Source of the DNA: Bacteroidota bacterium
GTDB taxonomy: Bacteria; Bacteroidota; Bacteroidia; Flavobacteriales; Schleiferiaceae
Length of the DNA: 48,941 nucleotides
Assembly: GCA_003045825.1 (NCBI GenBank)
Contig: PZPA01000004.1
Span: forward strand, 1 to 48,941
Direction: 5' to 3'
Shown: piece by piece, positions 3,402 to 35,460 of the stretch
Layout of the letters: every line of letters begins with the position of its first letter
Position numbering within the stretch: the stretch's first letter is position 1
Position numbers and translations under genes: made by a program
Notes under the pieces: model-generated
Told to the model about the DNA's origin: nothing
The model's database searches: none
The model's input: the letters and a program-made list of their open reading frames with translations, nothing else

Positions 3402-5345
3402 ATGAAAAATTTATTATGGATTGCCCTTGTTTGCTTGGGTGTACAATCGCAGGCACAAGAGGTTTTATTTACTGTTGGAGATCAAAGCATAACAACAGAG
3501 GAATTCAAGGCGGTATATGAGAAAAACAAAGGAGTAGGCGCTGCTTTAGATCCAAAAACTCCAGAGGAGTACTTAGAGCTTTATATCAATTTCAAGTTGA
3601 AAATTGCTGAGGCATATTCGCAGCATCGTGATACCGCTGCTAGCTTTAAAAATGAGTTTGGTGGATACCGCGCTCAGCTCGCAAAGCCTTATTTGAGCGA
3701 TCAAGGTGCTGAAGACGAACTGGTTGCGCAGGCCTTCGCTAGAATGCAAGAAGAAGTGCGTGCAGCGCACATCATGATTGCTCTTGAATCGAATGCACTT
3801 CCTTCAGATACTTTAAAGGCGTACAAACAGTTGCAAGATTTACGCACTTCCATTCTCTCAGGAAAGACAAAGTTTGAAGATGCAGCTCGTGAGACCAGTG
3901 CAGATACATGGAGCGCTAAAAATGGCGGAGATTTAGGGTACTTTACTGTATTCAACATGGTATATCCTTTTGAATCAGCGGCATATGAATTGGAAGTTGG
4001 TGATTTATCCAAGCCTGTTAGGAGTCAGTATGGTTACCATTTAGTGAAATTACTGGACCGCCGTTCGGCGAGTGGCGCGGTGCGCGTTCGTCATATTTTC
4101 TTTGCATCGAATGGACAATCCACATTGCAAGAGAAGCAGCGCGCAGCGCGCAGTGCCAGCGAAATTTACAGTCGTCTTGAGAATGGTGAAGATTTTATTT
4201 CACTTCTAGAGTTTAGTGAAGACCGCAAGACAAAAGATGCTTTGGGTGAATTGCCAGAATTTGGCATCAATAAAATGATGCCAGCTTTTGAGGCAGCTGC
4301 GTTTGCGTTAGAATCCCCGGGCGATTATTCTGCACCCGTTGAAACAAGTATAGGCTGGCATGTTATCCAATTGATTGAGAAAAAGCCACTTCCCTCGTTT
4401 GATGCGTTACAATCTGAGCTATCAAAGAAAGTGAAACGAGATACAAGGAGCAGAGTTGGTGCTACCCGATTCATGAAACGTTTAAAGTCCGATTATGACT
4501 TTTCGATCGACGAACGTTGGTTAAGTCGTACCATGAATTTAGTGGATAAAAATGCCTTTGGCACGGGCTCTTGGGAGTTGCCTAGTTTGTCTCGAGATCG
4601 CATTGTTGCGTCCTTTGCAAATGAGCGTATATACCAAAGTGAGGTATTAGAGTTTTGGTTTAAAAATCAGAACCAGAGCGGCGAGGCCGTGCGCGAGGAA
4701 TTGTTAAGAGTACAGTTTAACACTTATGCGAACGATCGCTTGATGGCCTATGAAGACGGTCAGCTTGAAACGAAACATGCCGATTTTCGAAATTTAGTTC
4801 GCGAGTACAAAGAGGGAATTCTTTTGTTTGACCTAACTCAGGAGGCCGTTTGGAATAAGGCTGCTAAAGATTCTACCGGAATAGCTGCTCATTATGAATT
4901 GATTAAAGATCAATACCTCTGGGAAGATCGTATCCGTGCAATTTATTGGGTCAGTAGTGATGAAAAATTGGCTAAAAAGATTTCTAAGTGGACCATTAAG
5001 GGTAAGTCAGAAAAGGTTCAAGAGCTCTTGCAAAATGAAGATGCCTTGAGCGTCTCCGTGAATAGTGGCACTTTTGAGCGTGATGACCATTCAGTGATTG
5101 ATGCTATTTGGCAACAGGAGGCTGGTACATTTGGTCCAATTGCATTAGATAACGGTACTTATGCAGTAGTTCAAATTGAAGAATTCATTCCTAGTGCACC
5201 AAAAGCTTTGAATGAAATCAAAGGATTGGTGATCGCCAGTTACCAAGATGCGCTTGAAAAAGAGTGGGTAAAGGCGTTGAAATTAAAATTTGAGGTCGAT
5301 GTAAATGAGAACGCGAAAGCGGCTCTATTTGCTGAGTTGCGTTAA
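3402..5345 (+). CDS. Periplasmic PpiC/parvulin-type peptidylprolyl isomerase with two rotamase domains
   Basis: Signal peptide; two rotamase modules (VRAAHIMI...GGDLGYF...YGYHLVKLLDRR and VRVRHIFF...GWHVIQLIEKK). Confidence 0.85.
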   Translation: MKNLLWIALVCLGVQSQAQEVLFTVGDQSITTEEFKAVYEKNKGVGAALDPKTPEEYLELYINFKLKIAEAYSQHRDTAASFKNEFGGYRAQLAKPYLSDQGAEDELVAQAFARMQEEVRAAHIMIALESNALPSDTLKAYKQLQDLRTSILSGKTKFEDAARETSADTWSAKNGGDLGYFTVFNMVYPFESAAYELEVGDLSKPVRSQYGYHLVKLLDRRSASGAVRVRHIFFASNGQSTLQEKQRAARSASEIYSRLENGEDFISLLEFSEDRKTKDALGELPEFGINKMMPAFEAAAFALESPGDYSAPVETSIGWHVIQLIEKKPLPSFDALQSELSKKVKRDTRSRVGATRFMKRLKSDYDFSIDERWLSRTMNLVDKNAFGTGSWELPSLSRDRIVASFANERIYQSEVLEFWFKNQNQSGEAVREELLRVQFNTYANDRLMAYEDGQLETKHADFRNLVREYKEGILLFDLTQEAVWNKAAKDSTGIAAHYELIKDQYLWEDRIRAIYWVSSDEKLAKKISKWTIKGKSEKVQELLQNEDALSVSVNSGTFERDDHSVIDAIWQQEAGTFGPIALDNGTYAVVQIEEFIPSAPKALNEIKGLVIASYQDALEKEWVKALKLKFEVDVNENAKAALFAELR

Positions 5346-6190
5346 TGTTGAAGCCCATCTTCATAGTACTTGTTGCGCTGGCAGCAGTGGCGTGCGTCCC
5401 CAATGGGGCGGCGGAATTAGAGGTATTGGCAGAATTGGGCAACAAAAAGCTTTATATAGAAGATATTTCGGACCACCTGCCCAAACCTGGGCAAATGGAT
5501 GAAGCGGATAGTATTTCCTTAGTGAACCGTTTGGTTCGTCAGTGGGCAGAAAATGAACTGTTGGTGGAAGCGGCGGAATTCAACTTGACGACAGAATTAG
5601 AGGATTTCGAGGGGTTGGTAAAGCAATACAGAAATGATTTGCTAAAGCATGCGTACATTGATGGATATGTGCGTCAGCATCTAGACACCACCATTTCTCA
5701 GCAACAAATTCAAGACTATTACGATCAAAACTTGAGCAATTTTGAGCTAAAAGAAAGTATTGTTCAGGCCTATTATGCTGCAGCGCCTTTAAAAGCCCAG
5801 AAGACGCAGGAAGCGAAACGTTGGTTCCTTTCGGACAGATACCAGGAAAAATATTTGGATTGGGCAGAAGTATTTGTCACGAAACAAAGTAATTACGGCG
5901 ATTCGGCCTGGGTACCCATGATGGATTTTCTGCAGGAAATTCCATTTGAATCGACCAACCCGTATAACTATTTAAATAGAAGAAAGAGATTTACCTGCGA
6001 AGACACTGCATTGGTGTATTTTGTGCAGGTGAATGCACTTTTGATAAAGGATAGCTATAGTCCGCTGCCTTATGTTGAAGAACGAATTAAGAAGGTACTG
6101 TTGAACAAGCGTCGACTGACGCTCATCGAGCAGATTGAAGAAAAAATAATTGAACATGCAATTGAAGAAGGCACACTTATTATACATTAA
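5345..6190 (+). CDS. SurA-N-like lipoprotein without an evident PPIase domain
   Basis: Lipobox-like AAVAC; ELGNKKLYIEDISDHLP...VNRLVRQWAENELLVEAA resembles the SurA N-terminal chaperone region; located between two PPIases. Overlaps the next CDS. Confidence 0.6.
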   Translation: MLKPIFIVLVALAAVACVPNGAAELEVLAELGNKKLYIEDISDHLPKPGQMDEADSISLVNRLVRQWAENELLVEAAEFNLTTELEDFEGLVKQYRNDLLKHAYIDGYVRQHLDTTISQQQIQDYYDQNLSNFELKESIVQAYYAAAPLKAQKTQEAKRWFLSDRYQEKYLDWAEVFVTKQSNYGDSAWVPMMDFLQEIPFESTNPYNYLNRRKRFTCEDTALVYFVQVNALLIKDSYSPLPYVEERIKKVLLNKRRLTLIEQIEEKIIEHAIEEGTLIIH

Positions 6191-7511
6191 TTTTTTCGTC
6201 TTACTCTCCGTATTGGCGAGTGCGCAACCTCAGACTGTTGATGGTGTCGCCGCAATCGTAGGGGGTGATGTTATTCTTAAGAGTGATATCGACGAGCAGT
6301 ACGACGTATTCAACCGTCAAAACTTTGGGAAACCAGTATCGTACTGTGAGGTTTTCGAAGAACTGTTGTTTCAAAAGTTACTTATTCACCATGCAGCTAT
6401 CGATTCCATTTCCATTGGAGAAGAAGAAGTAGAGGCGAATATGGATCGTAGAATTCAACAATTGATCATGCAGATGGGTGATCAAAAGAAATTAGAAGAC
6501 TTTTACGAAAAATCCGTTGTCGAGATAAAAGAAGACATGCGAACGCTCATCAAGGAGCAGCTAACCGCGCAGCGAATGCAAATGACGGTAGTAGAAGGTA
6601 TTGAGGTGACGCCATCTGAAGTTCGCGAGTATTACGAAAATTTACCTGCTGATAGTATTCCTCTGATCAGTGCAGAGGTAGAATTGAGTCAGATTGTAAA
6701 ATTTCCAGAATTGTCTGATGAGGCTGAGCAAGAAGTGATTGCTAAGCTAAAAGAGCTAAAAGAACGCATTGAGAACGGCACGTCTTTCTCTTCCATGGCC
6801 ATTCTCTACAGCGAGGATCCAGGATCAAATAAAAAAGGGGGTGAGTACCAAGGCATTCAGCGTGGTGTCTTTGTTAAGGAATTTGAGGCCGTAGCTTTTA
6901 ATTTGCGCAAAGGAGAAATAAGCGACCCTTTTAAGACCGAATTTGGTTATCATATTGTCCAATTATTAGAGAAGCGTGGGGAAGAATTGGACCTTCGTCA
7001 CATCCTGATAAAGCCAAAACTAACGCAAGAAAATTTGCAAGAGGCGAAGAATTTCTTAGATAGCGTTAGCGTAGCAATTGCAAACGGTGAGATGACATTC
7101 GAAGAGGCTTCTAGACGTTTTAGTGATGATGAACAAACGCGATTCAACGGCGGACAGATGAGCAATTTTCAAAGCGGAAACAACAAATTTGAAGTATCCC
7201 AGCTGGACAGGGGACTTTTTGCCTTGATCAGTTCATTAGAAGATGATGAAATCTCAGAGGCGTCGTTTTACCGCACGGAAGACCAGCGTGAGGCGTTCCG
7301 TATTGTTCGTTTGGATGCGAACTATGAACCGCACAAAGCAAATTTAGATTTAGACTTTACACGTATAAAGGGTTTTGCACTTCAGCAAAAGCAAGCAAAG
7401 ACGGTTGAAGATTGGAAGAATGAAAAATTGGCCGATACATTTGTGAAAATCAATGAAGGCTATTACGATTGTGCGGACGAATTAAATTCTTGGAACAGCA
7501 ACAATGACTAA
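6156..7511 (+). CDS. surA: SurA-like periplasmic chaperone/peptidylprolyl isomerase
   Basis: VDGVAAIVGGDVILKSDIDEQY start of a SurA domain; rotamase motifs GGEYQGIQRG...FGYHIVQLLEKRG and LDLRHILIKP. Confidence 0.82.
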   Translation: MQLKKAHLLYINFFVLLSVLASAQPQTVDGVAAIVGGDVILKSDIDEQYDVFNRQNFGKPVSYCEVFEELLFQKLLIHHAAIDSISIGEEEVEANMDRRIQQLIMQMGDQKKLEDFYEKSVVEIKEDMRTLIKEQLTAQRMQMTVVEGIEVTPSEVREYYENLPADSIPLISAEVELSQIVKFPELSDEAEQEVIAKLKELKERIENGTSFSSMAILYSEDPGSNKKGGEYQGIQRGVFVKEFEAVAFNLRKGEISDPFKTEFGYHIVQLLEKRGEELDLRHILIKPKLTQENLQEAKNFLDSVSVAIANGEMTFEEASRRFSDDEQTRFNGGQMSNFQSGNNKFEVSQLDRGLFALISSLEDDEISEASFYRTEDQREAFRIVRLDANYEPHKANLDLDFTRIKGFALQQKQAKTVEDWKNEKLADTFVKINEGYYDCADELNSWNSNND

Positions 7512-21120: not shown

Positions 21121-21720
21121 ATGCACGCACAAGAATATATAGACCTCGTAAAATCAACGTTAGACGCTCTCGACCCTAAAAGTTTAGATCAATTGGTGGA
21201 TGCATTCCATACGACCTATTCGAAGGGCGGAAATATTTACACCATGGGAAATGGTGGATCCGGGGCTTCCGCATCTCATGCCGCGGGGGATTTCTTAAAA
21301 GGCGCCAGCTACGGATTAGACAAACGCTTCAAAATGATTTGTTTAAACGACAACCTTCCCTCGATGATGGCCATTGCGAACGATATCGGCTGGGAGAGTA
21401 TATTTATAGAACCGCTGAAAAACTTCCTGCAACCGCAAGATTTAGTCATTGGCATCAGTGGATCAGGAAACAGCAAAAATGTGGTAGCCGCATTGGAATA
21501 TGCGAATGAAAAGGGTGCGACGACTGTAGCTTTAAGCGGTTTTAAGGGCGGTAAAATTGCCCAAATCGCAACCATCAATGTGCATGCACCAGTAATGGAC
21601 ATGGAAGTTACTGAAGATGTGCACATGGTGATCTTCAACATCGTGAAAAAACAAATGATGGCGCGCTTAATGGGAGAAAATCCATCGATGGGATCAACGT
21701 ACGATCAAAGAATAGGATAA
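21121..21720 (+). CDS. SIS-domain sugar isomerase, phosphoheptose isomerase (GmhA)-like
   Basis: MGNGGSGASASHAAGDFLKG, GISGSGNSKNVVAALEYANEKGATTVALSGFKGGKIA, TEDVHMVIFNIV. Confidence 0.82.
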   Translation: MHAQEYIDLVKSTLDALDPKSLDQLVDAFHTTYSKGGNIYTMGNGGSGASASHAAGDFLKGASYGLDKRFKMICLNDNLPSMMAIANDIGWESIFIEPLKNFLQPQDLVIGISGSGNSKNVVAALEYANEKGATTVALSGFKGGKIAQIATINVHAPVMDMEVTEDVHMVIFNIVKKQMMARLMGENPSMGSTYDQRIG

Positions 21721-22701
21721 ATGAAGCGGTTCGCGCTAATTGGGGCAGCTGGCTACATCGCGCCAAGACACCTAAAGGCTATTAAAGATGTCGGTGGTGA
21801 GCTCGTGGCTGCCTACGATCCTAGCGATAGCGTGGGACATCTTGATGCCTATTTTCCTTCAGCGGCGTTTTTTACAGAATTTGAGCGATTCGACCGTCAT
21901 TTAAATAAGTTATCGGAGCGTGGTCAGGGGGTCGATTATATTAGTATTTGTTCTCCAAACTACCTACACGATAGTCATATTCGCTACGCCCTTCGCATCG
22001 GCGCACATTGTATTTGCGAAAAGCCTTTAACCTTGAGGCCATGGAATATTGATGGTTTAAGTTCGGTTAGTCAAAGTGCTGATAAAAAGGTGTTTACAAT
22101 ACTTCAACTTCGTTTGCATGAAAGTGTGATTGCGCTAAAACGACAAGTAGAAGACCAATTAAAATCAGACCCGAATCACATCTTTGATGTTGAATTAACT
22201 TACATCACCTCGCGCGGGAATTGGTATTATGCCTCTTGGAAAGGGGACGAAGAAAAAAGCGGTGGAATAGCCACGAATATCGGTGTTCATTTCTTCGATA
22301 TGTTGCATTGGATTTTTGGTCCGCTTCAACAACAAAAAGTACATGCTCGTTCCCACGATCGTGCGTCTGGAGTCTTGCGCTTTAAAAATGCTAATGTTCG
22401 CTGGTTCTTAAGCATTAATGCAGCAACGTTGCCTGAAAAAGTGGTTCAAAGTGGCGGTAGGATACACCGGAGCTTGCGCTTTGACCAATGGTCTTTTGAT
22501 TTTACGGAAGGTTTTACAGAACTGCATTCGCGCTCTTACGCGCACATTTTAAATGATAAAGGCTTTTCGGAGCGTGATGCGCAGCCGGCCATTAGCATCG
22601 TTCACGGTATGCGAGAATCGCTTATTAGTCCATTAGATTCGGAAGCTCATCCGTTGGCATCATTACCGCAAGACCCGCATCCATTTTATCCTTTGAAATA
22701 A
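21721..22701 (+). CDS. wbpB: Gfo/Idh/MocA oxidoreductase, WbpB/WlbA-like (UDP-GlcNAcA 3-dehydrogenase)
   Basis: FALIGAAGYIAPRHLKAIKDVGGELVAAYDPSDSVG, ISICSPNYLHDSHIRYALRIGAHCICEKPLTL, GGIATNIGVHFFDMLHWIFG. Confidence 0.78.
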   Translation: MKRFALIGAAGYIAPRHLKAIKDVGGELVAAYDPSDSVGHLDAYFPSAAFFTEFERFDRHLNKLSERGQGVDYISICSPNYLHDSHIRYALRIGAHCICEKPLTLRPWNIDGLSSVSQSADKKVFTILQLRLHESVIALKRQVEDQLKSDPNHIFDVELTYITSRGNWYYASWKGDEEKSGGIATNIGVHFFDMLHWIFGPLQQQKVHARSHDRASGVLRFKNANVRWFLSINAATLPEKVVQSGGRIHRSLRFDQWSFDFTEGFTELHSRSYAHILNDKGFSERDAQPAISIVHGMRESLISPLDSEAHPLASLPQDPHPFYPLK

Positions 22702-22771
22702 CTCTAAGTGCCTTAATTACAGTGTTCAGATAAGTAGTCAATAGTTATTCACACTGCTTCATGAAGGCCTA

Positions 22772-22788
22772 TAGTTTTGTTAGCTTTG
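22772..22788 (+). promoter_or_regulatory. Two tandem -7-like elements upstream of dnaE
   Basis: TAGTTTTG (22772-22779) and TAGCTTTG (22781-22788), both matching TAnnTTTG. Confidence 0.45.
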
Positions 22789-22818
22789 AGTATACCTCAA
22801 TAGCGACTTCACGCCTCT

Positions 22819-25800
22819 ATGTTTTTAATATTTGATACTGAAACTACCGGTTTTCCTAAAGATTGGAACGCTCCCATAACGGACCTAGATAATTGGCCAC
22901 GTGTGGTACAATTGGCATGGCAAATCCATGATGAGAACGGGGAATTGGTAGAAGTTCAGGACCATATTATTTATCCAGATGGCTTCGATATTCCATTTAA
23001 CGCGACGAAAGTACACGGTATCTCCACCGAACGCGCGAAGAATGAAGGCAGACCGCTTGCTGACGTTTTAACGGATTTTGAGGAGGCCCTTGAAAAATGC
23101 GAATACCTCGTTGGTCACAACGTCAATTTTGATCTAAATGTTACGGGCTGTGAATATTACAGGGTAACGGGTGAAAACCCATTGGATGCCAAGAAATCCT
23201 TGGATTCCTGTACGGAAACTACGGCCAAATTATGCGAATTGCCGGGTGGACGCGGAGGACGTTACAAGCTGCCAAAGCTAGAAGAATTGCACCGTCATTT
23301 GTTTGGTGAAGGATTTGCAGAGGCGCACAATGCTGCTTTCGATGTTGAGGCGACAGCGCGGGTATTCCTGGAATTATTGCGAATTAAGGTCATCACTCCA
23401 GAGGCCATAGGGAAGCCTTCCTCCTTCTTGGACGGATTTTACGCTGCGAATACAGGGCCCATAGCTTCTATTGGTTTAGCCGTGGATGAGGCCCGTAGAA
23501 AGAGAGAGAAAGGGCTGGATCAGAAGGCAAAAAAGAAAGCTTCCGGTAATGCCGACTTGCATGCTGCCGATGTCGAATTCGCTCACCTGCACAACCACAG
23601 TCAATTTTCTATTTTACAAGCAACTACGGTAGTTAGCGAACTGGTACGTGCTGCTGTGGAAAACGGTCATGCAGGAGTTGCCTTGACAGACTTGGGCAAT
23701 ATCATGGGGGCGTTTCACTTTAACCGAGCGGTGATGGGTGTGCCTGGAAACCGAGAAGCCTATGAGCACAATCAAAAGGTAAAAAGTGGCACTTTGAACG
23801 AGCCGCTTCAAGAATACCCGTTTGTTGGCATTATTGGTTGCGAGTTCTTTGTCTGCGAGGACCGCCTAGATCGCAGTAAAAAAGACGACGGTTACCAGAT
23901 TGTACTTTTGGCCAAGAACAAAAATGGCTATCATAACCTTGCGAAGCTCAGCAGTGAGGGAATGTTGAACGGCTTTTATTATGTCCCTAGAATAGATAAA
24001 TCATACCTCTTAGAGCACAAGGAGGATTTAATTGTACTAAGCGGTGGACTACGCGGTGAAATTCAGCATTTGTACCTCAATGTTGGTGAGGCACAGGCTC
24101 GAGAAGCCTTAGAATGGTGGCGTGACCAGTTTGGCGATGACTTTTACCTAGAACTTAACCGTCACCGACTTGAAGAAGAGGACCACGTGAATCTTCAATT
24201 ACTCAGCTATGCGAAGGAGTACGGCATAAAATACATTGCAGCGAACAATACCTTTTACTTGACTCAAGAGAATGCGGAGGCGCATGATATTTTACTCTGC
24301 GTCAAAGAAGGCGCTCAAAAAAGCACACCTATAGGTCGAGGTCGCGGCTTCCGTTATGGATTCCCAAATCAAGAATTCTACTTTAAGACGAAAGAGGAGA
24401 TGGTGGAATTGTTTTCTGACCTCCCTGAGGCATTGAACACCACTAAAGAAATAATAGATAAGGTTGAACTCTATCCGTTAGAGCGAGATGTGCTTCTTCC
24501 AGAGTTTGATATACCTGAAGAATTTCAGGATCCACAAGATAAAATTGACAGCGGACAGCGTGGCGAAAATGCTTATCTGCGTCATTTAACATATGTAGGG
24601 GCTAAAACACGCTATGAAGATTTGACGCCGGAAATTACTGAGCGCTTGGACTTTGAGTTAGAAACCATTGCACGCACTGGCTATCCGGGGTATTTCTTGA
24701 TCGTACAAGATTTCTGTGAAGCCGCACGACAGATGGACGTAAGTGTCGGCCCTGGTCGCGGTTCTGCAGCCGGTTCTGCAGTCGCCTATTGTACGGGAAT
24801 CACTAATGTGGATCCCATAAAATACGACCTGCTTTTTGAGCGCTTTTTGAATCCGGAACGTGTATCGCTCCCCGATATTGATATTGACTTTGACGATGAA
24901 GGTCGGGATAAGGTCATACAGTATGTTATTGATAAATACGGTGCGTCACAGGTGGCTCAAATCATCACCTATGGTACCATGGCAGCAAAGAGTTCTATAC
25001 GCGATGCTGGAAGGGTGCTAGAATTACCTTTACCAGATACGGATCGTATTGCAAAACTCATTCCTGATATGACCAAGCTCAAGAAGCTATGGGAATTGGA
25101 CGACAAGGAGCTGCGGAGCAAATTTGGATCAGAAGAGGCAGGATTGGTTCAGCAACTTAAGGCGTTGTCAGAAGGTGATACGCTTGAGGCTACAACCATT
25201 AATCAAGCGCGTGTTTTGGAAGGCTCTTTGCGCAACACGGGCATTCATGCATGTGGTGTAATTATTACTCCAAGTGATATTAGAGAATTAGTACCTGTAG
25301 CGCGCGCGAAGGATTCAGAAATGTGGTGTACCCAATTTGACAACTCCGTGGTTGAAGACGCAGGACTGCTTAAAATGGACTTTTTAGGTCTTCGTACGCT
25401 GACCATTATCAAAGAGGCATGCCGTTTGGTTAAACAACGTCACGATGTAGATTTAGACCCGGATAGTTTTCCGCTTGATGACACGAAAACTTACGAATTA
25501 TTTCAACGAGGAGAAACTGTGGGAATCTTCCAGTACGAAAGTGCTGGAATGCAAAAATATTTGAAAGAACTCAAGCCCACAGAGTTTGCAGACCTCATCG
25601 CAATGAATGCACTGTACCGTCCCGGTCCGTTGGAATACATACCGGAGTTTATTGAACGGAAGCACGGAAGAAAGGAGATCGTTTACGATTTAGACGCCAT
25701 GGAGGGCAAGCTCAAGGAAACGTATGGAATTACTGTTTATCAGGAGCAGGTAATGCTTTTGTCTCAGGAACTGGCAGGTTTTACAAAGGGTCAAGCCGAT

Positions 25801-27201
25801 ATTCTTCGCAAGGGTATGGGTAAAAAGCAGAAGCATATCATCGATAAGCTTAAGCCGATGTTCCTGGACGGTGGGGAAGAACGCGGTCACAATAGAGACG
25901 TTCTCGAAAAGGTTTGGAAGGACTGGGAAGCCTTTGCTTCGTATGCTTTTAATAAGTCACACTCTACTTGTTACGCCTGGGTAGCCTTTCAAACGGCCTA
26001 TCTCAAAGCACATTATCCGGCTGAATTCATGGCATCCGTATTATCGAATAACATGTCAGATCTAAAGACAGTAACCTTCTTCATGGAGGAATGCCGCCGC
26101 ATTGGCGTGCCTGTTTTAGGTCCTTCTGTCAATGAAAGTTTATTGCGTTTTTCCGTGAACCCGAAAGGTGCCGTACGTTTTGGAATGGGCGGTATGAAGG
26201 GCGTTGGTGAAAATGCTGTGCGCGAGATTATATCGCAACGCGAGGATGGTGGCCAATTCAAAAATCTCTTCGATTTACTTGAACGAATAGACCTCCGTCA
26301 AGCCAATAGAAAAACCATAGAGTGTCTCATTCTTGGCGGAGCCATGGACGACTTCGAGGGGACGCACCGTGCCATGTACTTCTCAGAAGAGGAGGGTGGA
26401 CGCAGTTTTGTGGAAAAAGCGATCAAATACGTACAAGGCAAGAAAAACGATTCAGAAAGTGCCCAAGCCTCACTTTTTGGTGAAGGTTCTGGCGAAGAAC
26501 TTCCGCCGCCCACTATGCCAGTTGTACCTGAATGGCCTTCTATTGTTGCCCTTAAGAAGGAAAAAGAGATTAATGGAATGTACCTCAGTTCTCATCCACT
26601 GGATGATTATCGAACGGAGATTAAATACTTTTGTAACGCATCTTTGAGCCGTTTGAACCATGTAGAAAGCATCTTGGGACGGGAAGTAACTGTCGCGGGT
26701 ATAGTTACCGATGCGCAGCATAGGATTTCTAAAATGGGCAAAGGCTGGGGGATATTCCGACTCGAGGACTTTCACGGGGACTATGAGTTCAAACTCTTCG
26801 GTGAAGATTACCTTAAGTTTCGACATTTCTTCGATAACGAACAATTGCTCTACATAAAAGCGCGCGGCCGTAAATTTAATCAACGCCAAGGTGAAGGCTT
26901 TGTTGAACGTTTGAGTGTCGATGTTGCAGAGGTTAGATTACTGTCAGAAGTATTGGAGGAAAGCAGCAAGAGCCTTGAGATAAAATTGAACCTGCAGTGG
27001 TTAACAACGCCACTAGTAGATGAACTGCATGAGCTCCTGTCGCTTCATCCGGGCAAGAAACGTGTTAAGTTGCATGTGATAGATGCGGAGGAGAAGCTGG
27101 ATATAAAGTTGCCGGTAAAAGAATTCAAAGTAACCATTGCAAAGGATTTACTGCAGGTTCTAGAGCAACATGAACACTTGCAACCAAAGGTGATTAGCTA
27201 A
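22819..27201 (+). CDS. dnaE: DNA polymerase III alpha subunit with fused N-terminal DnaQ-like 3'-5' exonuclease
   Basis: N-terminal exonuclease motifs FDTETTG, VGHNVNFD, AHNAAFDVEAT; then PHP domain (HLHNHSQFS); polymerase GPGRGSAAGSAVAYC and PDIDIDFDDEGRDKV; OB domain near the C-terminus. Confidence 0.95.
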   Translation: MFLIFDTETTGFPKDWNAPITDLDNWPRVVQLAWQIHDENGELVEVQDHIIYPDGFDIPFNATKVHGISTERAKNEGRPLADVLTDFEEALEKCEYLVGHNVNFDLNVTGCEYYRVTGENPLDAKKSLDSCTETTAKLCELPGGRGGRYKLPKLEELHRHLFGEGFAEAHNAAFDVEATARVFLELLRIKVITPEAIGKPSSFLDGFYAANTGPIASIGLAVDEARRKREKGLDQKAKKKASGNADLHAADVEFAHLHNHSQFSILQATTVVSELVRAAVENGHAGVALTDLGNIMGAFHFNRAVMGVPGNREAYEHNQKVKSGTLNEPLQEYPFVGIIGCEFFVCEDRLDRSKKDDGYQIVLLAKNKNGYHNLAKLSSEGMLNGFYYVPRIDKSYLLEHKEDLIVLSGGLRGEIQHLYLNVGEAQAREALEWWRDQFGDDFYLELNRHRLEEEDHVNLQLLSYAKEYGIKYIAANNTFYLTQENAEAHDILLCVKEGAQKSTPIGRGRGFRYGFPNQEFYFKTKEEMVELFSDLPEALNTTKEIIDKVELYPLERDVLLPEFDIPEEFQDPQDKIDSGQRGENAYLRHLTYVGAKTRYEDLTPEITERLDFELETIARTGYPGYFLIVQDFCEAARQMDVSVGPGRGSAAGSAVAYCTGITNVDPIKYDLLFERFLNPERVSLPDIDIDFDDEGRDKVIQYVIDKYGASQVAQIITYGTMAAKSSIRDAGRVLELPLPDTDRIAKLIPDMTKLKKLWELDDKELRSKFGSEEAGLVQQLKALSEGDTLEATTINQARVLEGSLRNTGIHACGVIITPSDIRELVPVARAKDSEMWCTQFDNSVVEDAGLLKMDFLGLRTLTIIKEACRLVKQRHDVDLDPDSFPLDDTKTYELFQRGETVGIFQYESAGMQKYLKELKPTEFADLIAMNALYRPGPLEYIPEFIERKHGRKEIVYDLDAMEGKLKETYGITVYQEQVMLLSQELAGFTKGQADILRKGMGKKQKHIIDKLKPMFLDGGEERGHNRDVLEKVWKDWEAFASYAFNKSHSTCYAWVAFQTAYLKAHYPAEFMASVLSNNMSDLKTVTFFMEECRRIGVPVLGPSVNESLLRFSVNPKGAVRFGMGGMKGVGENAVREIISQREDGGQFKNLFDLLERIDLRQANRKTIECLILGGAMDDFEGTHRAMYFSEEEGGRSFVEKAIKYVQGKKNDSESAQASLFGEGSGEELPPPTMPVVPEWPSIVALKKEKEINGMYLSSHPLDDYRTEIKYFCNASLSRLNHVESILGREVTVAGIVTDAQHRISKMGKGWGIFRLEDFHGDYEFKLFGEDYLKFRHFFDNEQLLYIKARGRKFNQRQGEGFVERLSVDVAEVRLLSEVLEESSKSLEIKLNLQWLTTPLVDELHELLSLHPGKKRVKLHVIDAEEKLDIKLPVKEFKVTIAKDLLQVLEQHEHLQPKVIS

Positions 27202-28011
27202 ATGAAAAACTGGATAGGATGTATAGTTTTGTTGTTCGCAACCCCTTTGATAGCGCAGGTGAATTGTGTGACAACCGCTGACCAGCTGGGTCCTTACTTT
27301 ATTGCAAACGCACCGCTCATAACTAATGACACTCTTGCACCGGGTATTTCGGATACCTCCAGAGCCTTACAGCTTACCTTTTACGTCTCTTGGAATTGTG
27401 ATACGGTTGATTTAGACACGTTGTCCAGTACTTACATGGTTGAAATGTGGCATGCAGATGCGCAAGGGGATTACAGCAACGTAGACGGCAACCCTAATAA
27501 TTTCGCCTACCGCGGGAAATTGGAGCTATCTGGTAAGTCTACAGTTTTTCATACAGAATTGCCGGGTATTTATCCTTACCGACCCTCACACATTCACATC
27601 AAAAGCTATTTAACGGATGCATGGTTCACTGATACGTTGGTCACACAATTGTATTTTGAAGGTGATTCTCTTCTTCAGTTTGATATCGCTAGTTCTTATC
27701 CGGAGCGCTGGATACGTTTGGACACCACAGCGAAGGGATATATGGGCGGTTTCGCTTTTGGCCTTCAATATATCATTGGGACCGCGGAGGAGGAGAAGAC
27801 TACATGGACTTGCTTTCCCAACCCCGCAGTGGATAAAGTCGCCATAGAATCTTCAAGCCCTTTCGCTCAAATTCAAGTCATGGATGCGATCGGGAGGGTC
27901 TACTACGAGGGGACCTTGCCAGATGGACAAAATCTAGACATAAGCGAATGGCCGCGCGGGACGTACGTTGTTCGTATAAACGAGCAATCGCGTTTGTTAT
28001 TGGTGCGCTAG
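27202..28011 (+). CDS. Secreted intradiol ring-cleavage dioxygenase-like protein with T9SS type A sorting domain
   Basis: Signal peptide; GPYFIAN..., VEMWHADAQGDYSN, FAYRGKL, LPGIYPYRPSHIHIK; C-terminal CFPNPAVDKVAIESS...YEGTLPDGQNLDISEWPRGTYVVRI. Confidence 0.8.
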   Translation: MKNWIGCIVLLFATPLIAQVNCVTTADQLGPYFIANAPLITNDTLAPGISDTSRALQLTFYVSWNCDTVDLDTLSSTYMVEMWHADAQGDYSNVDGNPNNFAYRGKLELSGKSTVFHTELPGIYPYRPSHIHIKSYLTDAWFTDTLVTQLYFEGDSLLQFDIASSYPERWIRLDTTAKGYMGGFAFGLQYIIGTAEEEKTTWTCFPNPAVDKVAIESSSPFAQIQVMDAIGRVYYEGTLPDGQNLDISEWPRGTYVVRINEQSRLLLVR

Positions 28012-28098
28012 GGTTTTTAACAGAATGGTGCCTTTTGGTGTGGATAACATCAATGAGTTCATAGGTATTGACTATAGGTTACAAGGTTATATTGGCCC

Positions 28099-28106
28099 TA
28101 CTTTTG
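28099..28106 (+). promoter_or_regulatory. Bacteroidetes-type -7 element upstream of trxA
   Basis: TACTTTTG (TAnnTTTG), 26 nt before the ATG at 28133. Confidence 0.45.
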
Positions 28107-28132
28107 AATTAAGAAAACGAAATACATTTTTT

Positions 28133-28450
28133 ATGGCACTCGAAATAACAGAAGCAAACTTCGAAGAGATTGTAATGAAATCAGATAAGCCTGTTTTGGT
28201 TGATTTCTGGGCAGAATGGTGTGGCCCTTGCCGCATGGTTGGACCTGTAGTCGACGAATTGGCTGGCGATTACGAAGGTAAAGCTGTGGTAGGCAAATTA
28301 AACGTAGATACAGAAGGTGCAGTGGCGCAGCAGTTTGGTGTGCGTAACATTCCAACACTATTGGTATTTAAAAACGGTGAAATCGTAGACAAGCAAGTTG
28401 GAGCAACAAGCAAGCAAGTACTCGCTGCGAAGCTCGACGGCGCGATGTAA
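28133..28450 (+). CDS. trxA: Thioredoxin
   Basis: MALEITEANFEEIVMKSDKPVLVDFWAEWCGPCRMVGPVVDELA. The listed start at 28025 adds 36 residues not expected for thioredoxin. Confidence 0.95.
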   Translation: MALEITEANFEEIVMKSDKPVLVDFWAEWCGPCRMVGPVVDELAGDYEGKAVVGKLNVDTEGAVAQQFGVRNIPTLLVFKNGEIVDKQVGATSKQVLAAKLDGAM

Positions 28451-28474
28451 GCTACCGCAAAGCAAAATTTCAGA

Positions 28475-28508
28475 AGCCCCCAATCCGTGAGGATTGGGGG
28501 CTTTTTTT
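28475..28508 (+). terminator. Intrinsic terminator after trxA
   Basis: AGCCCCCAATCC-GTGA-GGATTGGGGGCT followed by T-run. Confidence 0.88.
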
Positions 28509-28592
28509 GTTCGCAACTTTTAGTTCTTTACAAAAATTGACTTTTAGAATATGGCGTGCCAATTTGAATAGAAACCTCAAATATCGCGTCTT

Positions 28593-31500
28593 ATGAAAGC
28601 ATTACTACTTCGTCTATTTTCTTGGGTCATTTGTATCCTTATTCCCATTACTTCGAATGCCCAATTGCAAGATTCATTGGATTGGATCTATGAAAAATTA
28701 CCGTCTCATCTTTTCGCTACTGGATTATTGCATGATGTCAGTGCAGTACATTTATTCACCCACCAAGGGCCCTTAGATCCTCATTTTCATACAGGAAGCC
28801 TACCCGGCAGGAGTGCTACGATAGAGCAATTTCAGTACGTATATATGGACTTGTATCAGAGCCAGCTGCGAGATTCCAACAAGGCATTTTATCCACAAAA
28901 TAACTTGCGTCTCATGCCTTGGGATAGTTTGAGTCTAGAGCATAAATACATGGGTAAAGTTGATGTGCCTTTGATGTTACTCTGGGCAACTTTTAACACT
29001 CTTGATTCAACGGCTATTGCTCAAGGATTCTTGGATTTTGATAAAGGCCAATTCGAATTGGTCGACGAATACATTACCATTGACGACCAGGGGCAGTATC
29101 CTGTTTACCAGGGAGATCCACAAAAGTTAGCGCAACAAGCAGTAATGCAAGACACGACTTTCATAGGTTCAGCATTGTATTCCTCAACCTACAGCGAAAC
29201 AAATACGGCATCTGTAACCTTCCAACTCAGTTCAAGTGAAGTTTATCAAAATATAGGGGGTATAGACAGTATCACCGTAGATTTTGCCGATGGTGCAGGG
29301 TTTCGTAGCGTCATTACAAATCAACTGGTGACAATCAACTACCATTGTTCCACTTCGCAGGTAGAGCACGTTGTGAAAGAACTAAGAATAAGAGGATATA
29401 AAAACGGCAAAACGGTGGAGAGTAAGCTTAAAGTGAACGTCGTATTTAATACTCCCGTGGCCCATCAAGAAGTATTGACAGATTTGCTTCCATCATCACC
29501 TTGTGTACCTAATGCGGATCCAGAATATGGCGCACGAGTAACATTAAGATATGCCGACCCTAGCGCGGGCCTTCAAAAGCCTGTTGTGGTGGTGGAAGGA
29601 TTTGAATCTTCCGTACAACCCTACGGTAATCTTACATACAAAAGCATTAGTAGTGGCTATGTGTTTGATGAAAATGGCGACCAGATCTTTCAGCACATTC
29701 ATCCTTTAAGTTGGCTGTATGATTCCCTCACTTTAGCTGGTTTCGATATTGTGCATATAGATTTTCGAGAAGCAAAATTGTCGCTTATGGAGAATAAAAT
29801 CAATGTACTAAAGACGTTGAATTGGTTGCACGCTAAGAATCCTCTGGCTGAGATTACGGTGATTGGGGCTTCTATGGGTGGACTCATCGCGAAGATGGCT
29901 ATAAACGATTTAGCTGCTTCAGGCTGTTGTTATAATATCGTTGGTTATGGGTCATACGATGTGCCACACCGTGGCGCATTTATTCCCGTTGGACTGCAAG
30001 CAGCCAGTAAATATTATGCCGAATTATTACCTTTTGTACCCATGGCTCGAAACCCTTGGTCTGCTGTTGTGAATTCAGATGCTGCGCGCGAATTACTTAT
30101 CTCGCATTTTGATGCTTCTGCCCGTCAAGCGCACGAACAGGTAATGAAAGTTACGGCATTGGCTCCTTCAGGAATGCGCAGGTTCGCTATATCTAACGGC
30201 AGTGACATGGGACTCACTCAAACATTGCAGGATCCTCTCAGTCGCTATTTCAGGCACGGCTTAAGGCTGGAGACTTGTATTCGGCACGCCGTCGCATTTC
30301 ATTCGGATACCATTGCATTTAATATCGATGGATATCGTGATTCCCTTTTAGTCTTTGGTACCGAAGCTGTTGCCACGGATCATGCAGGAACATATCTGTT
30401 TTATGCCACTTCATACCGGCAGTTACTAACGGCATTTAAGATGAATTGGATGGCAGCTTGTTCAGCCCGTAAGGTTCAATTCATTGCTGCTGTAGGTCCA
30501 TATATCCCGGGTGTATCAAAAGCAATGCTCTCAAAAGCAGTCGTTAAAAGACAAAAACGTACAAATCAAGGACTTTTAAAAATGCAGAAGGGTATGACGA
30601 AAGGAGCCCACACGGTATTAAAGAATAAATTCCCTGAACATTATGATGAGGCACCAGGAGGTTGGACAGCAACAGCGACGGCATTTCAGTTACCGATTCT
30701 GAGTGAAATATTCAGCGCTACGCATTGCTTTATACCTTCATTTAGTGCATTAGACGTAAGCGATAGTTTGGCGTACCAGCCCATACGCAATCAACCGATA
30801 CCTTCTTTTCACACTTTCATAGCGCCTGGAATAATTCACGATGCAGTTGGCACCAATCAAGCGCACATCAGCGTTGATTCAACCATTATTTCTTTCGGTC
30901 TGTCTCAATTGCGTACCATCTACGACCAAAAGTTGAGCGATACATTAAAGACCGATTTTAATCTCGCTCAGGAACATACCTATTTTGGGGCCGTTCAGAG
31001 CAATCTAGGAAGACTTATTGTTCCCAAAAATATAACCCTAGGGCTTGGGCTCACTACGGGTATTGGCCCAGCGAATTCGACGGTTGCGAGTGCAGCGAAG
31101 CAAGCGGTGCATTGCTTCGTAGGTCATGGCTGTACCAGGGATACAGTGCATATCTATGGAGACCTACGGATAGGTGATGGCCCAAATAATCTAGCTTCTC
31201 TACGTGTAAATGAATCAAGCGCTTTAGTGCTGCACAAGGGGGCAACTTTATTTATTGAACCGGGCAGTCGATTGGAAATTAGTAGGGAAGGGGCGTTGAT
31301 TGTGGAAAAAGGAGTTTCGATAGTTTTAGATCGTGGTACCATTCAGTTACAGGGCATGCTTGTACTGGAATCAGATGCGCTGTTTCAGCCGCAAGGGCCT
31401 GGTCAATTCTACTTTAGCGGAAATGCTGCTGTAACTGCCGAAAAAGGCGCTGTGATGCATTTGGAGGACGCGGAAATTAAGATTTCCTCTACACTGAACA

Positions 31501-32642
31501 TCCCTTCACAATTGGACCATTTTGCAATGGATCAATGTAAAGTGACCCTTGATTCAGAGGCTACGCTACGTTTGCACAGTTTATCCCAGTTGTGGAATAC
31601 TGAATTTGTCAAAACGGGTAAGAAACAAACAGCTTCCATTTCAGTGCTTGAAGGAGTTTCGGAAGTTCAACATTGTCAATTTCACGGCGGTAATCCAGCA
31701 CTTTCGATTGCTGATTCAGTGCAGTGGGGTTTAGCGAATACGACTTTTTCAGATGCTAATATGGGCTTAAGCGCACTGTCACCACCACAGTTGTTTTCGG
31801 CTAATTCATTCACTGGCAACACCACCGGAGGGATGATCACTGGCGCTGATTTTCTTCTCGAACGCTCAGTTTTTCATAATAATAACGTTGGCATAGTCCT
31901 TAAAGGGCCTGGTAAATGGGTACAGCTGGAATTCTGTAGTTTTTCATCAAATACGTCGGCGGGTATACAAACGAACCAATCAAAGCTTCATGTTTTCTGT
32001 AGTGATTTCGCACACAACACTGTTGGAATTCAAGCCTCTAAAGGCCAATTGAAATTGGCCAAAAATGCTGGAAACACTTTCGAGAACAATACAGTCGGGG
32101 TGAGCTTTCAAAGTTTGGAGAAGCTAGAGCTTCAGCAAGGACATAACACGTTCAATCAGCAAGTATTATACGATGTAACCGGTAGTTTTTCTCCTTCTGC
32201 AAGTCTAAGCTACAATGGATCATACCATTACATATACGCCGATAACACTAGTTTTTCTAAGGCCAACAGTAACCTCTTAACTGTAGGAAAAGACACAGTT
32301 TACTTGTTGTACGCTTCCAGCCAGCCCCCAAGTGTATTGCTGTGTCCAACCAAAGGGGGGAGGAAATCAGAAGATGTTAGTTGGTCTCGTACAGATTCAC
32401 TACCTGAATTTGTCGCTTTTCCGAATCCTGGAAATGAATGGGTCGAATTGGTTTTTCTGACCACGAGTACAAAAGCGGAATTAGCAGTATTCAATCCTCA
32501 GGGGGAGCAAATTTATCTCGAAGAACTGCCAATTGGAACTTATCGTAAGCAATTAAATATTCCCGGAAGTGCTGGCTTATATCTTGTTCGACTTATCGAT
32601 GGGGACCGTATTGCCCAACTCCGTTGGCTTAAGCTCGATTAG
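28593..32642 (+). CDS. Large secreted protein: alpha/beta-hydrolase region, beta-helix-like repeats, T9SS type A sorting domain
   Basis: Signal peptide; VVVVEGFESS...EITVIGASMGGLIAKMAIND (GxSxG); repetitive LRVNESSALVLHKGATLFIEPGSRLEISREGALIV and later NNTVGV-type repeats; C-terminal AFPNPGNEWVELVF...GTYRKQLNIPGSAGLYLVRL. Confidence 0.78.
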   Translation: MKALLLRLFSWVICILIPITSNAQLQDSLDWIYEKLPSHLFATGLLHDVSAVHLFTHQGPLDPHFHTGSLPGRSATIEQFQYVYMDLYQSQLRDSNKAFYPQNNLRLMPWDSLSLEHKYMGKVDVPLMLLWATFNTLDSTAIAQGFLDFDKGQFELVDEYITIDDQGQYPVYQGDPQKLAQQAVMQDTTFIGSALYSSTYSETNTASVTFQLSSSEVYQNIGGIDSITVDFADGAGFRSVITNQLVTINYHCSTSQVEHVVKELRIRGYKNGKTVESKLKVNVVFNTPVAHQEVLTDLLPSSPCVPNADPEYGARVTLRYADPSAGLQKPVVVVEGFESSVQPYGNLTYKSISSGYVFDENGDQIFQHIHPLSWLYDSLTLAGFDIVHIDFREAKLSLMENKINVLKTLNWLHAKNPLAEITVIGASMGGLIAKMAINDLAASGCCYNIVGYGSYDVPHRGAFIPVGLQAASKYYAELLPFVPMARNPWSAVVNSDAARELLISHFDASARQAHEQVMKVTALAPSGMRRFAISNGSDMGLTQTLQDPLSRYFRHGLRLETCIRHAVAFHSDTIAFNIDGYRDSLLVFGTEAVATDHAGTYLFYATSYRQLLTAFKMNWMAACSARKVQFIAAVGPYIPGVSKAMLSKAVVKRQKRTNQGLLKMQKGMTKGAHTVLKNKFPEHYDEAPGGWTATATAFQLPILSEIFSATHCFIPSFSALDVSDSLAYQPIRNQPIPSFHTFIAPGIIHDAVGTNQAHISVDSTIISFGLSQLRTIYDQKLSDTLKTDFNLAQEHTYFGAVQSNLGRLIVPKNITLGLGLTTGIGPANSTVASAAKQAVHCFVGHGCTRDTVHIYGDLRIGDGPNNLASLRVNESSALVLHKGATLFIEPGSRLEISREGALIVEKGVSIVLDRGTIQLQGMLVLESDALFQPQGPGQFYFSGNAAVTAEKGAVMHLEDAEIKISSTLNIPSQLDHFAMDQCKVTLDSEATLRLHSLSQLWNTEFVKTGKKQTASISVLEGVSEVQHCQFHGGNPALSIADSVQWGLANTTFSDANMGLSALSPPQLFSANSFTGNTTGGMITGADFLLERSVFHNNNVGIVLKGPGKWVQLEFCSFSSNTSAGIQTNQSKLHVFCSDFAHNTVGIQASKGQLKLAKNAGNTFENNTVGVSFQSLEKLELQQGHNTFNQQVLYDVTGSFSPSASLSYNGSYHYIYADNTSFSKANSNLLTVGKDTVYLLYASSQPPSVLLCPTKGGRKSEDVSWSRTDSLPEFVAFPNPGNEWVELVFLTTSTKAELAVFNPQGEQIYLEELPIGTYRKQLNIPGSAGLYLVRLIDGDRIAQLRWLKLD

Positions 32643-32703
32643 GTTATATTTTTTAAGCTAACGGATTCGCCCTATTTTGCAGTATAATTCCAATCACCTG
32701 TGT

Positions 32704-33816
32704 ATGCCTATTCCAATGGTAGATTTACCCAAAATCCACGCGCCTTACCAGGGTGCTTTGGACGAAGCTGTACTATCGGTAGTTCATGGCGGTGGGTATA
32801 TTGGAGGTCCAGTTGTAGAGGCTTTTGAGAAACAAGCAGCGTCTTTTCTTGACGCTCCAATCATTGGTGTTGGCAATGGGACTGACGCGCTGCAAATCGC
32901 ATTAATGTCTTTAGGTATTCAACCTGGAGACGAAGTGATTGTGCCGGCTTTTACCTACGCGGCAAGTGCTGAAGTCATTGCATTATTAGGTGCCGTTGCG
33001 GTTTGGTGTGATGTAAATGAATCAACATTTACCATTGACCCGAATTCGGTTAAGGACGTACTGTCTGATAAAACAGCGGCAATTATTGCGGTTCATTTGT
33101 ACGGGCAATGTGCTGATATTGAGTCTTTAGAAAAAATAGCTGTAGGAATTCCAATTGTAGAGGATACCGCACAGGCATTTGGTGCAAAATTCATTAAGGG
33201 TAAGTATTCAGGCAGATTTGCAGGAACCGTCGGGGCCTTTGGAACGTTTAGTTTTTTTCCAACAAAAAACCTTGGAGCTCTAGGGGATGGTGGAGCAATA
33301 TCAAGCACAAACGCTGACTTTTTAGTCAAAGCTAAGTCCATAGCAAGCCATGGTCAGCGTAAAAAATACGAGCATCATTTACTGGGTTTGAATTCTCGAC
33401 TTGATCCTATTCAGGCAGCTGCTCTTGCTGTGAAGTTAAAGTTCCTGCCTGAGGCGCTTTCTGCCAAAACACTCATTTCCGAACAGTATTTAGCCGCTTT
33501 TCAACCTTTGAAACAAGTTGTTGTTCCCGAAACAGCATCCTTCTCTAATCACACGTACCATCAGTTTACACTTACTATTCCAAGCGAAAAACGTGATAGA
33601 TTTGTGGAGTATATGAGAGAAAAAGGCATCTCAACCATGGTGTATTACCCTATTCCTCTGCACAAACAAAAAGCATATGCGCATTTTGAGCCTAGAACTT
33701 CCTTAGCAATAAGCGAAAAGTTGTCTAGGAGCGTTATTAGTATTCCGGTGCATGAAGCATTGGCGCCCAATGATATCTTGGCTATTAAAGATGCAATAAC
33801 AAAATACTTTTCCTAA
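32704..33816 (+). CDS. wbpE: DegT/DnrJ/EryC1/StrS aminotransferase, WbpE/WlbC-like
   Basis: [76 protein letters not shown]. Start is either 32704 or 32716; the listed 32677 is less likely. Confidence 0.85.
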
Positions 33817-33818
33817 TT

Positions 33819-34394
33819 ATGGATGATTTTTTTGTACACGAAACTGCGGTCGTCGATGCGGGTGTTCACATAGGAACGGGCACTAAGGTTTGGCATTTTT
33901 CACATATCATGTCTCATTGCACAGTTGGTGTAGATTGTGTTATTGGCCAAAATGTTTTTCTTGGTGCTTCGGTTAAAATAGGATCAGGTGTAAAAATTCA
34001 GAATAACGTAAGCGTCTACAGTGGTGTCGAAATTGAGGACGACGTCTTTCTCGGTCCATCTATGGTGTTTACAAATGTGAATGCGCCTCGTAGTTTCATT
34101 GAGCAGAAGAATTATTCGAAAACTCTCGTTAAAAAGGGCGCCTCTATAGGAGCAAATGCAACGATCGTTTGCGGCAATACAATAGGAGCTTATGCTTTTA
34201 TTGGCGCCGGTGCTGTTGTGACCAGTGAGGTTCCTGATTATGCATTTATCTACGGAGTGCCGGCCAAGCTAAAGGGGTGGGTGAGTAAGGCTGGCTCACG
34301 TCTATATTTTGAAGACAGTTCTACTGCATTTTGTGATAAAACTGGTGAGAAATATGAATTAAGAAACGGCGCAGTCTTTTTAGTCACCTCCTAA
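33819..34394 (+). CDS. wbpD: Hexapeptide-repeat N-acetyltransferase, WbpD/WlbB-like
   Basis: [42 protein letters not shown]...[36 protein letters not shown]. Confidence 0.85.
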
Positions 34395-34395
34395 G

Positions 34396-35460
34396 ATGAA
34401 GGTTGTTACAGTAGTTGGAGCACGTCCTCAATTCATAAAAAGCGCTCCTGTAAGTAGGGCTCTTCAGTCAGTTGGTTATCAGGAGTTTGTGATTCATACG
34501 GGGCAGCATTATGATCCGGAGATGAGTACTGTTTTTTTTGAAGAAATGAGCCTTCCTAAACCGTATGCTATTTTAAACTGCGGTAATTTGAGTAGGGATG
34601 CGATGCTGTCAAAAATGAAGACAGACTTAAAGCCTATTTTCGAGGCAATACAACCAGATATGGCGCTCGTTTACGGCGATACGAATTCAACGTTAGCTGG
34701 TGCTCGTATGGCGCAAGAGTGCAACGTGCCGCTCATTCATGTAGAAGCTGGTTTACGTTCCTATAATTTGGAAATGCCGGAGGAACATAATAGAATAGAG
34801 TCGGACCAACTTTCAAAATGGCTTTTTACCCCTACGTCACAAGCATCAGAGAACTTGAAAAAAGAGGGATTTAGCGATAATGCCATTACTCAAGTAGGGG
34901 ATGTGATGCTAGATGCTTTGCAGATGTTTCGGTCAAAAGCAGCACATACTTTAAAGATGGGCCCACATTCTTTTTTTAATAAACCCTTCGCACTGGTGAC
35001 TATGCATCGTTTTGAAAATATCAGTCAACCAGAACGATTAGGTTTTTTAGTAAGAGAAATAAATTCGTTTCATCGAAACGTGATGCCGGTTTGGATGCCT
35101 TTGCATCCAGCAACAGCAGTACGCTTAGAAGAATTTGGATTGAAATTGGAGGTCAAAATTGCTCCACCTGTAGGCTATTTAGAGATGCTATGGGCCCTAC
35201 AGCAAACTACGTTGGTGCTGACGGATAGTGGTGGTTTACAAAAAGAAGCCTATTATTCAGATAAACCGTGCGTAACCTTGCGAGGGGAAACAGAATGGAT
35301 CGAATTGATTGAAATGGGTGCAAGCGTATTGTTTGACCCAAATAAAACGGAAAAACTCATACCAACTGCACGAGGTATTATTTCTAGCTTTAAACCCGGC
35401 TCCAAGGATCTTTATGGCGCTGGTAGAGCTAGCCAAGCAATAGTAGCAGCTCTAGGATAG
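34396..35460 (+). CDS. wbpI: Non-hydrolysing UDP-GlcNAc 2-epimerase family protein, WbpI/WlbD/WecB-like
   Basis: VVTVVGARPQFIKSAPVSRAL, HTGQHYDPEMS, VYGDTNSTLAGARMAQ, HVEAGLRSYNLEMPEEHNR, DSGGLQKEAY. Confidence 0.85.
   Translation: MKVVTVVGARPQFIKSAPVSRALQSVGYQEFVIHTGQHYDPEMSTVFFEEMSLPKPYAILNCGNLSRDAMLSKMKTDLKPIFEAIQPDMALVYGDTNSTLAGARMAQECNVPLIHVEAGLRSYNLEMPEEHNRIESDQLSKWLFTPTSQASENLKKEGFSDNAITQVGDVMLDALQMFRSKAAHTLKMGPHSFFNKPFALVTMHRFENISQPERLGFLVREINSFHRNVMPVWMPLHPATAVRLEEFGLKLEVKIAPPVGYLEMLWALQQTTLVLTDSGGLQKEAYYSDKPCVTLRGETEWIELIEMGASVLFDPNKTEKLIPTARGIISSFKPGSKDLYGAGRASQAIVAALG

Follow-up and report, generated by a model that had tools for sequence, protein, structure and literature searches.

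The window analysed is a stretch of 48,941 nucleotides that forms contig 13 of a 1.83 Mb assembly (112 contigs; 99.5% complete; G000 below) of a bacterium of the family Schleiferiaceae. The four wbp-like genes reported in the original prediction are all present at the positions given there (Table 1). They form two separate halves, and dnaE, which does not belong to the pathway, lies between wbpB and the remainder together with trxA and two genes for T9SS cargo. A strong hairpin resembling an intrinsic terminator follows trxA and likely splits the locus into two transcription units, pnuC-SIS-wbpB-dnaE-cargo-trxA and cargo-wbpE-wbpD-wbpI.

Table 1. Genes and features of the split wbp locus; enzyme functions marked putative are predicted from sequence
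Feature	Position	Strand	Basis and remarks
SIS-domain (GmhA-like) isomerase gene	21121..21720	+	TIGR00441 96 bits (below cut-off), PF13580; directly abuts wbpB
wbpB/wlbA, putative UDP-GlcNAcA 3-dehydrogenase	21721..22701	+	PDB 3oa2 (WbpB) 333 bits, 3o9z 312 bits
dnaE, not in the pathway	22819..27201	+	Synteny; name taken from the original prediction
T9SS type A cargo with intradiol-dioxygenase-like domain; dispensable	27202..28011	+	TIGR04183 36.5 bits, PF00775 43 bits
trxA, thioredoxin; bystander	28025..28450	+	TIGR01068 125 bits
Strong intrinsic-terminator-like hairpin	28472..28505	+	15 pairs, 8 GC, T tail
T9SS type A cargo with right-handed beta-helix domain; dispensable; opens the second unit	28593..32642	+	TIGR04183 27.9 bits, PF13229
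wbpE-like, putative 3-keto-sugar aminotransferase	32704..33816	+	PDB 3nyu 249 bits, 7b0d 265 bits; PF01041 315 bits
wbpD, putative 3-N-acetyltransferase	33819..34394	+	PDB 3mqg 213 bits
wbpI, putative UDP-GlcNAc3NAcA 2-epimerase	34396..35460	+	PDB 8sxv 285 bits; marker residues

Conservation of the split locus

Gene order was compared in relatives, as had been suggested together with the original prediction, and the split arrangement was found to be fixed in the genus. In nine other genus members, for which the whole region was read, the order is sucC-pnuC-SIS-wbpB-dnaE-(cargo)-trxA-(cargo)-wbpE-wbpD-wbpI, and hence the arrangement is not due to chance; two further genus regions cover only part of this order. 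Each of the 25 genus genomes gave a match to wbpB, those in G014 and G015 being fragments, and identity is 91-94% in the closest members. A match to wbpI was obtained in 24 of the genomes, and the SIS isomerase gene keeps its place beside wbpB. The wbp module is thus part of the core genome of the genus, whereas the polysaccharide genes that include a TviB/WbpA-type dehydrogenase vary. One member, G001, carries a second wbpB, wbpD and wbpE set on a contig (C12; L065, L066) that also bears TviB-type and other dehydrogenase genes.

The named-record set comprised 80 loci, the first of which is the genus's own (G024), and the closest wbpB in it was that of a Schleiferiaceae MAG (L091; 91% identical). 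At the 79 loci from outside the genus, wbpB often occurs with wbpD, wbpE or a WbpA gene, but the arrangement of the genus is absent and the SIS gene adjoins wbpB in none. A conserved link of wbpB with dnaE outside the genus was considered and rejected, as dnaE lay near wbpB at one of these 79 loci (Aquimarina L094), in a different arrangement.

Between G009 and G021 (L052, L053), nucleotide identity drops immediately after trxA, where the terminator lies, from some 96% to some 60%, and therefore wbpB and wbpEDI have had different recent histories in this pair. Exchange of a cargo-wbpEDI cassette was considered as the explanation and not upheld. Low identity is found upstream of sucC as well, and farther downstream the value of the sucC-trxA block is not reached again, so that the exchanged part may just as well be this block.

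The original prediction proposed that the locus supplies the T9SS cargo linker or a polysaccharide residue, and drew attention to the neighbouring cargo genes. The T9SS type A sorting domains of both are real, scoring above the TIGR04183 cut-off of 23 bits, and the body of the smaller protein resembles intradiol ring-cleavage dioxygenases. A further T9SS cargo gene, of type B (CHU_C, PF13585), is located at 15-1826 of the window. A pathway role for the neighbours did not survive comparison: in G010 and G003 neither cargo gene is present although the wbp genes are kept, so these neighbours are not functionally required and a linkage argued through them is rejected. The cargo genes beside wbpE are bystanders.

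Identity of the enzymes and the WbpA step

WbpB matches two WbpB chains in the PDB (E 1e-98 for the better one), with other Gfo/Idh chains reaching at most 51 bits. The best PDB match of WbpD is 3mqg, and that of WbpI is 8sxv, the UDP-GlcNAc3NAcA 2-epimerase of Thermus thermophilus. WbpE is the least certain assignment, its sequence being ambiguous between sugar 3-aminotransferases; 7b0d, deposited as a glutamine--scyllo-inositol transaminase, scores above the WbpE structure 3nyu. The pathway originally assigned to the genes is accordingly upheld for WbpB, WbpD and WbpI, whose best matches lie in the Wbp/Wlb group, and left ambiguous for WbpE.

Where ordinary UDP-GlcNAc 2-epimerases have Arg, Leu/Met and His/Gln, the T. 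thermophilus epimerase has Trp307, Ala18 and Tyr96, the residues that adapt it to a 3-NAc uronate substrate (PMC10622841). Trp301 and Tyr93 of the window WbpI align with Trp307 and Tyr96, and Ser16 stands in place of Ala18. A pattern of GxRPQFIKS, VYGDT and TEW is present in every genus WbpI copy examined and was not found in the ordinary WecB-like epimerase of G038. These marker residues, which were checked for WbpI only among the four enzymes, are direct sequence evidence pointing to a 3-N-acetylated uronic sugar as the substrate. It is fairly secure, as judged from the sequences, that WbpB and WbpE-WbpD-WbpI represent a sugar pathway of Wbp/Wlb type whose split is unusual but fixed. Together they would act as one module making UDP-2,3-diacetamido-2,3-dideoxy-glucuronic acid and, by epimerization at C2, the corresponding mannuronic form.

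The window contains no WbpA gene, as noted at the outset, and a genome search found no TviB/WbpA-type dehydrogenase in the 99.5%-complete assembly either; absence from the genome had been named beforehand as a result that would speak against the proposal. The single full-length NDP-sugar 6-dehydrogenase of the genome (C51:5655-6983) resembles UDP-glucose dehydrogenases (TuaD, AglM), with 3gg2 as its best PDB match. It is followed, in a conserved neighbourhood, by a gene of the GDP-mannose-dehydratase/epimerase family (UXS-like), which suggests an ordinary UDP-glucose dehydrogenase and argues against a WbpA role. The missing WbpA is a real gap, but it is not fatal to a linker role of the sugar, since the WbpA step of Porphyromonas gingivalis is assigned to UgdA, the mutant of which is leaky, with PGN_1243 suggested to compensate (PMC4031482; PMC13086638). 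If WbpA is truly lacking, the first step would fall to another enzyme; UDP-GlcNAcA could be provided by the Ugd-type dehydrogenase on C51 or by a WbpA that the assembly missed.

Across the genus, TviB/WbpA-type genes occur in 9 of the 25 genomes, within variable regions. Several have CysN-, PAPS-reductase- and transporter-type neighbours, which likewise vary. They are missing from 16 genomes, compared with 3.7 expected from incompleteness for a core gene. Metagenome assemblies lose variable islands at an above-average rate, and for this reason absence from an assembly is not conclusive, though loss of WbpA in G000 is likely.

The same counts bear on a different chemistry, resembling that of GnnA/GnnB, in which WbpB and WbpE would convert UDP-GlcNAc to UDP-GlcNAc3N and WbpD would acetylate it, so that a neutral 2,3-diamino sugar would be formed with no need for WbpA. 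Such a start from UDP-GlcNAc would account for the missing WbpA type in G000 and in much of the genus, and WbpB does match an archaeal UDP-GlcNAc 3-dehydrogenase model, weakly (20 bits). It is nevertheless improbable, given the wide gap between the scores of WbpB against the two WbpB chains and those against other Gfo/Idh chains, the match of WbpI to an epimerase of a uronic-acid pathway whose marker residues it carries, and the frequent loss of variable islands just mentioned. Still less credit can be given to the notion that the genes are the remnant of an incomplete pathway which, having lost its first enzyme, yields no product. The missing WbpA would fit, but none of the four genes is disrupted and all are retained throughout the genus, dN is low against near-saturated synonymous divergence in all four, and the WbpI signatures are conserved.

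VimE, PorU and the linking sugar

Outside the window, the genome encodes PorU (C45:795-4097; 895 bits), directly followed by a PorV-like gene that was identified by eye. A DUF7033 (PF23019) protein at C41:19626-20915 (L204:7626-8921) matches the NCBIfam VimE model NF053580 with 134 bits (E 4.7e-39), well below the equivalog cut-off of 440 bits, and keeps the DIDN and HPS motifs; no relative of it was found in the PDB. A FemAB-like gene overlaps this vimE homologue, an overlap that recalls the pair of VimE, a deacetylase, and VimA, an aminoacyl transferase, with VimA as a weak assignment. The FemAB-like gene of G000 contains a run of N and no protein of G000 matched the FemAB model TIGR03019 at 1e-3, while the relative in G038 matches it at 8e-5. 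A search with PF01522 likewise found no Vim enzyme in G000. The conclusion drawn from these two blanks, that the Vim branch is absent from the genome, was overturned by PF13480 matches in other genus members, through which the DUF7033 gene was recognized as a member of the VimE family.

In three other families (G038, G037 and G042) a WbpI-type epimerase gene adjoins the VimE homologue, which in G042 (Paludibacteraceae) reaches 498 bits and thus exceeds the cut-off. This proximity is the main new argument for a linker role. In Tannerella forsythia, the predicted epimerase BFO_2566 is numbered next to the VimF homologue BFO_2565 (PMC7468200).

Co-occurrence was examined with at least one genome from each of 16 families of the order, and mostly one per family. 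PorU is present in 11 families. A Wbp/Wlb 3-dehydrogenase, counted as such if of the WbpB type or if an alternative Gfo/Idh protein lay beside WbpD or close to WbpE, was found in 9 of the 11 families with PorU and in none of the 5 without it, in a small test whose categories were set after seeing the data (one-sided Fisher p 0.005; 0.011 without a 0.3 Mb genome). VimE with intact motifs shows the same tendency in this sample (8/11 against 0/5; p 0.013). VimE-family proteins that have lost the motifs occur in two PorU-negative families (G027, G033) and in three Flavobacteriaceae-type records (G057-G059), where the genes are mostly kept near radC and/or a HAD gene.

The best explanation is that the genus-fixed module, the VimE/VimA-like pair and PorU serve a single end, the attachment of cargo through a linking sugar, and a probability of roughly one half is assigned to it. 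The sugar would be handed to the distant VimE/VimA-like pair on C41, assembled into a surface glycan and would there provide the amine onto which T9SS cargo is coupled by PorU, the sortase. The linker would be closer to the mannuronic type of T. forsythia than to the glucuronamide of P. gingivalis, because WbpI is present. What has been gained for the original idea is the PorU-PorV pair, the VimE homologue and the co-occurrence with PorU; what has been lost is the argument from the cargo neighbours, and WbpA was not found, so that three of the four members of the Wbp/Vim set of WbpA, WbpB, WbpE and WbpD are in the genome. Also to be counted against a linker role are the low score of the VimE homologue, the blank with TIGR03019 and the run of N in the VimA-like gene, the location of the wbp genes, which are adjacent to neither porU nor vimE, the lack of an intact VimE in three families with PorU, and the degenerate VimE-family proteins of two families without it. 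The same diacetamido-uronic sugar is, moreover, a common O-antigen residue. The odds that the sugar acts as a linker are therefore put at about even.

UDP-ManNAc3NAcA might instead be destined only for an O-antigen or another polysaccharide of the cell surface, which is its role in Pseudomonas and Bordetella; the VimE-like pair would then serve another glycan. This is a serious alternative, albeit not a probable one. The pathway is classically used in this way (PMC4031482, PMC10622841), and close relatives of WbpB are often encoded near WbpA, WbpE or WbpD genes. Similar enzymes are found in Helicobacter and Arcobacter records, in which the VimE profile found nothing; the second wbp set of G001 lies near TviB-type and other dehydrogenase genes; and WbpE, WbpD and WbpI evolve faster than WbpB, as surface-glycan genes often do. 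Opposed to this are the window proteins, among which no glycosyltransferase, flippase or polymerase was found in those scanned, the genus-wide fixation of the module, in contrast to the variable polysaccharide islands, and the association of Wbp 3-dehydrogenases with PorU at the family level.

Relation to known systems

The sequences of WbpB, WbpE, WbpD and WbpI and the marker residues of WbpI resemble those of the Wbp/Wlb UDP-ManNAc3NAcA pathway of Pseudomonas aeruginosa, Bordetella and T. thermophilus. Here, however, dnaE and trxA split the genes, the assembly has no WbpA and no glycosyltransferases lie alongside. With the Wbp/Vim pathway, known in P. gingivalis (SAGA) and in its mannuronic form in T. 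forsythia (PMC7468200), the genome shares scattered wbp genes, PorU and a VimE-family/FemAB-like pair, and its WbpI fits the T. forsythia form with the predicted epimerase BFO_2566 (PMC7468200). It differs in having a divergent VimE, a weak VimA and no WbpA that could be found, and in belonging to the Schleiferiaceae rather than the Bacteroidales; a linker is predicted here from genes.

Within the literature covered, the chemistry of the T9SS linking sugar has been described for three species only, P. gingivalis, T. forsythia and P. intermedia, and the sugar of P. intermedia is unrelated (PMC11969387). Should Schleiferiaceae and related families use the Wbp/Vim route, this way of linking T9SS cargo would be widely shared, and the anchoring chemistry of gum-disease bacteria may exist outside that group. 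The full generalization, that covalent T9SS anchoring of the Wbp/Vim type is widespread in the order outside the Bacteroidales, with a divergent VimE-FemAB pair, a mannuronic-type linker made by WbpI and a WbpA step carried out in the genus by a different, possibly Ugd-type, enzyme, is put forward as a tentative and rather unlikely proposal. Candidate genes for the linker can now be named, namely wbpB, wbpEDI and the VimE-FemAB pair.

Alternative Wbp clusters of the WlbA type are present in other families of the order, in genomes with PorU. Their pathway logic is alike, but a distant Gfo/Idh dehydrogenase (27-30% identity) stands beside WbpD or WbpE in place of the WbpB type found here. Elsewhere in the window, three consecutive genes at 3402-7511 were observed, two of them with paired PPIC-type PPIase domains (SurA-like) and the middle one without a Pfam match.
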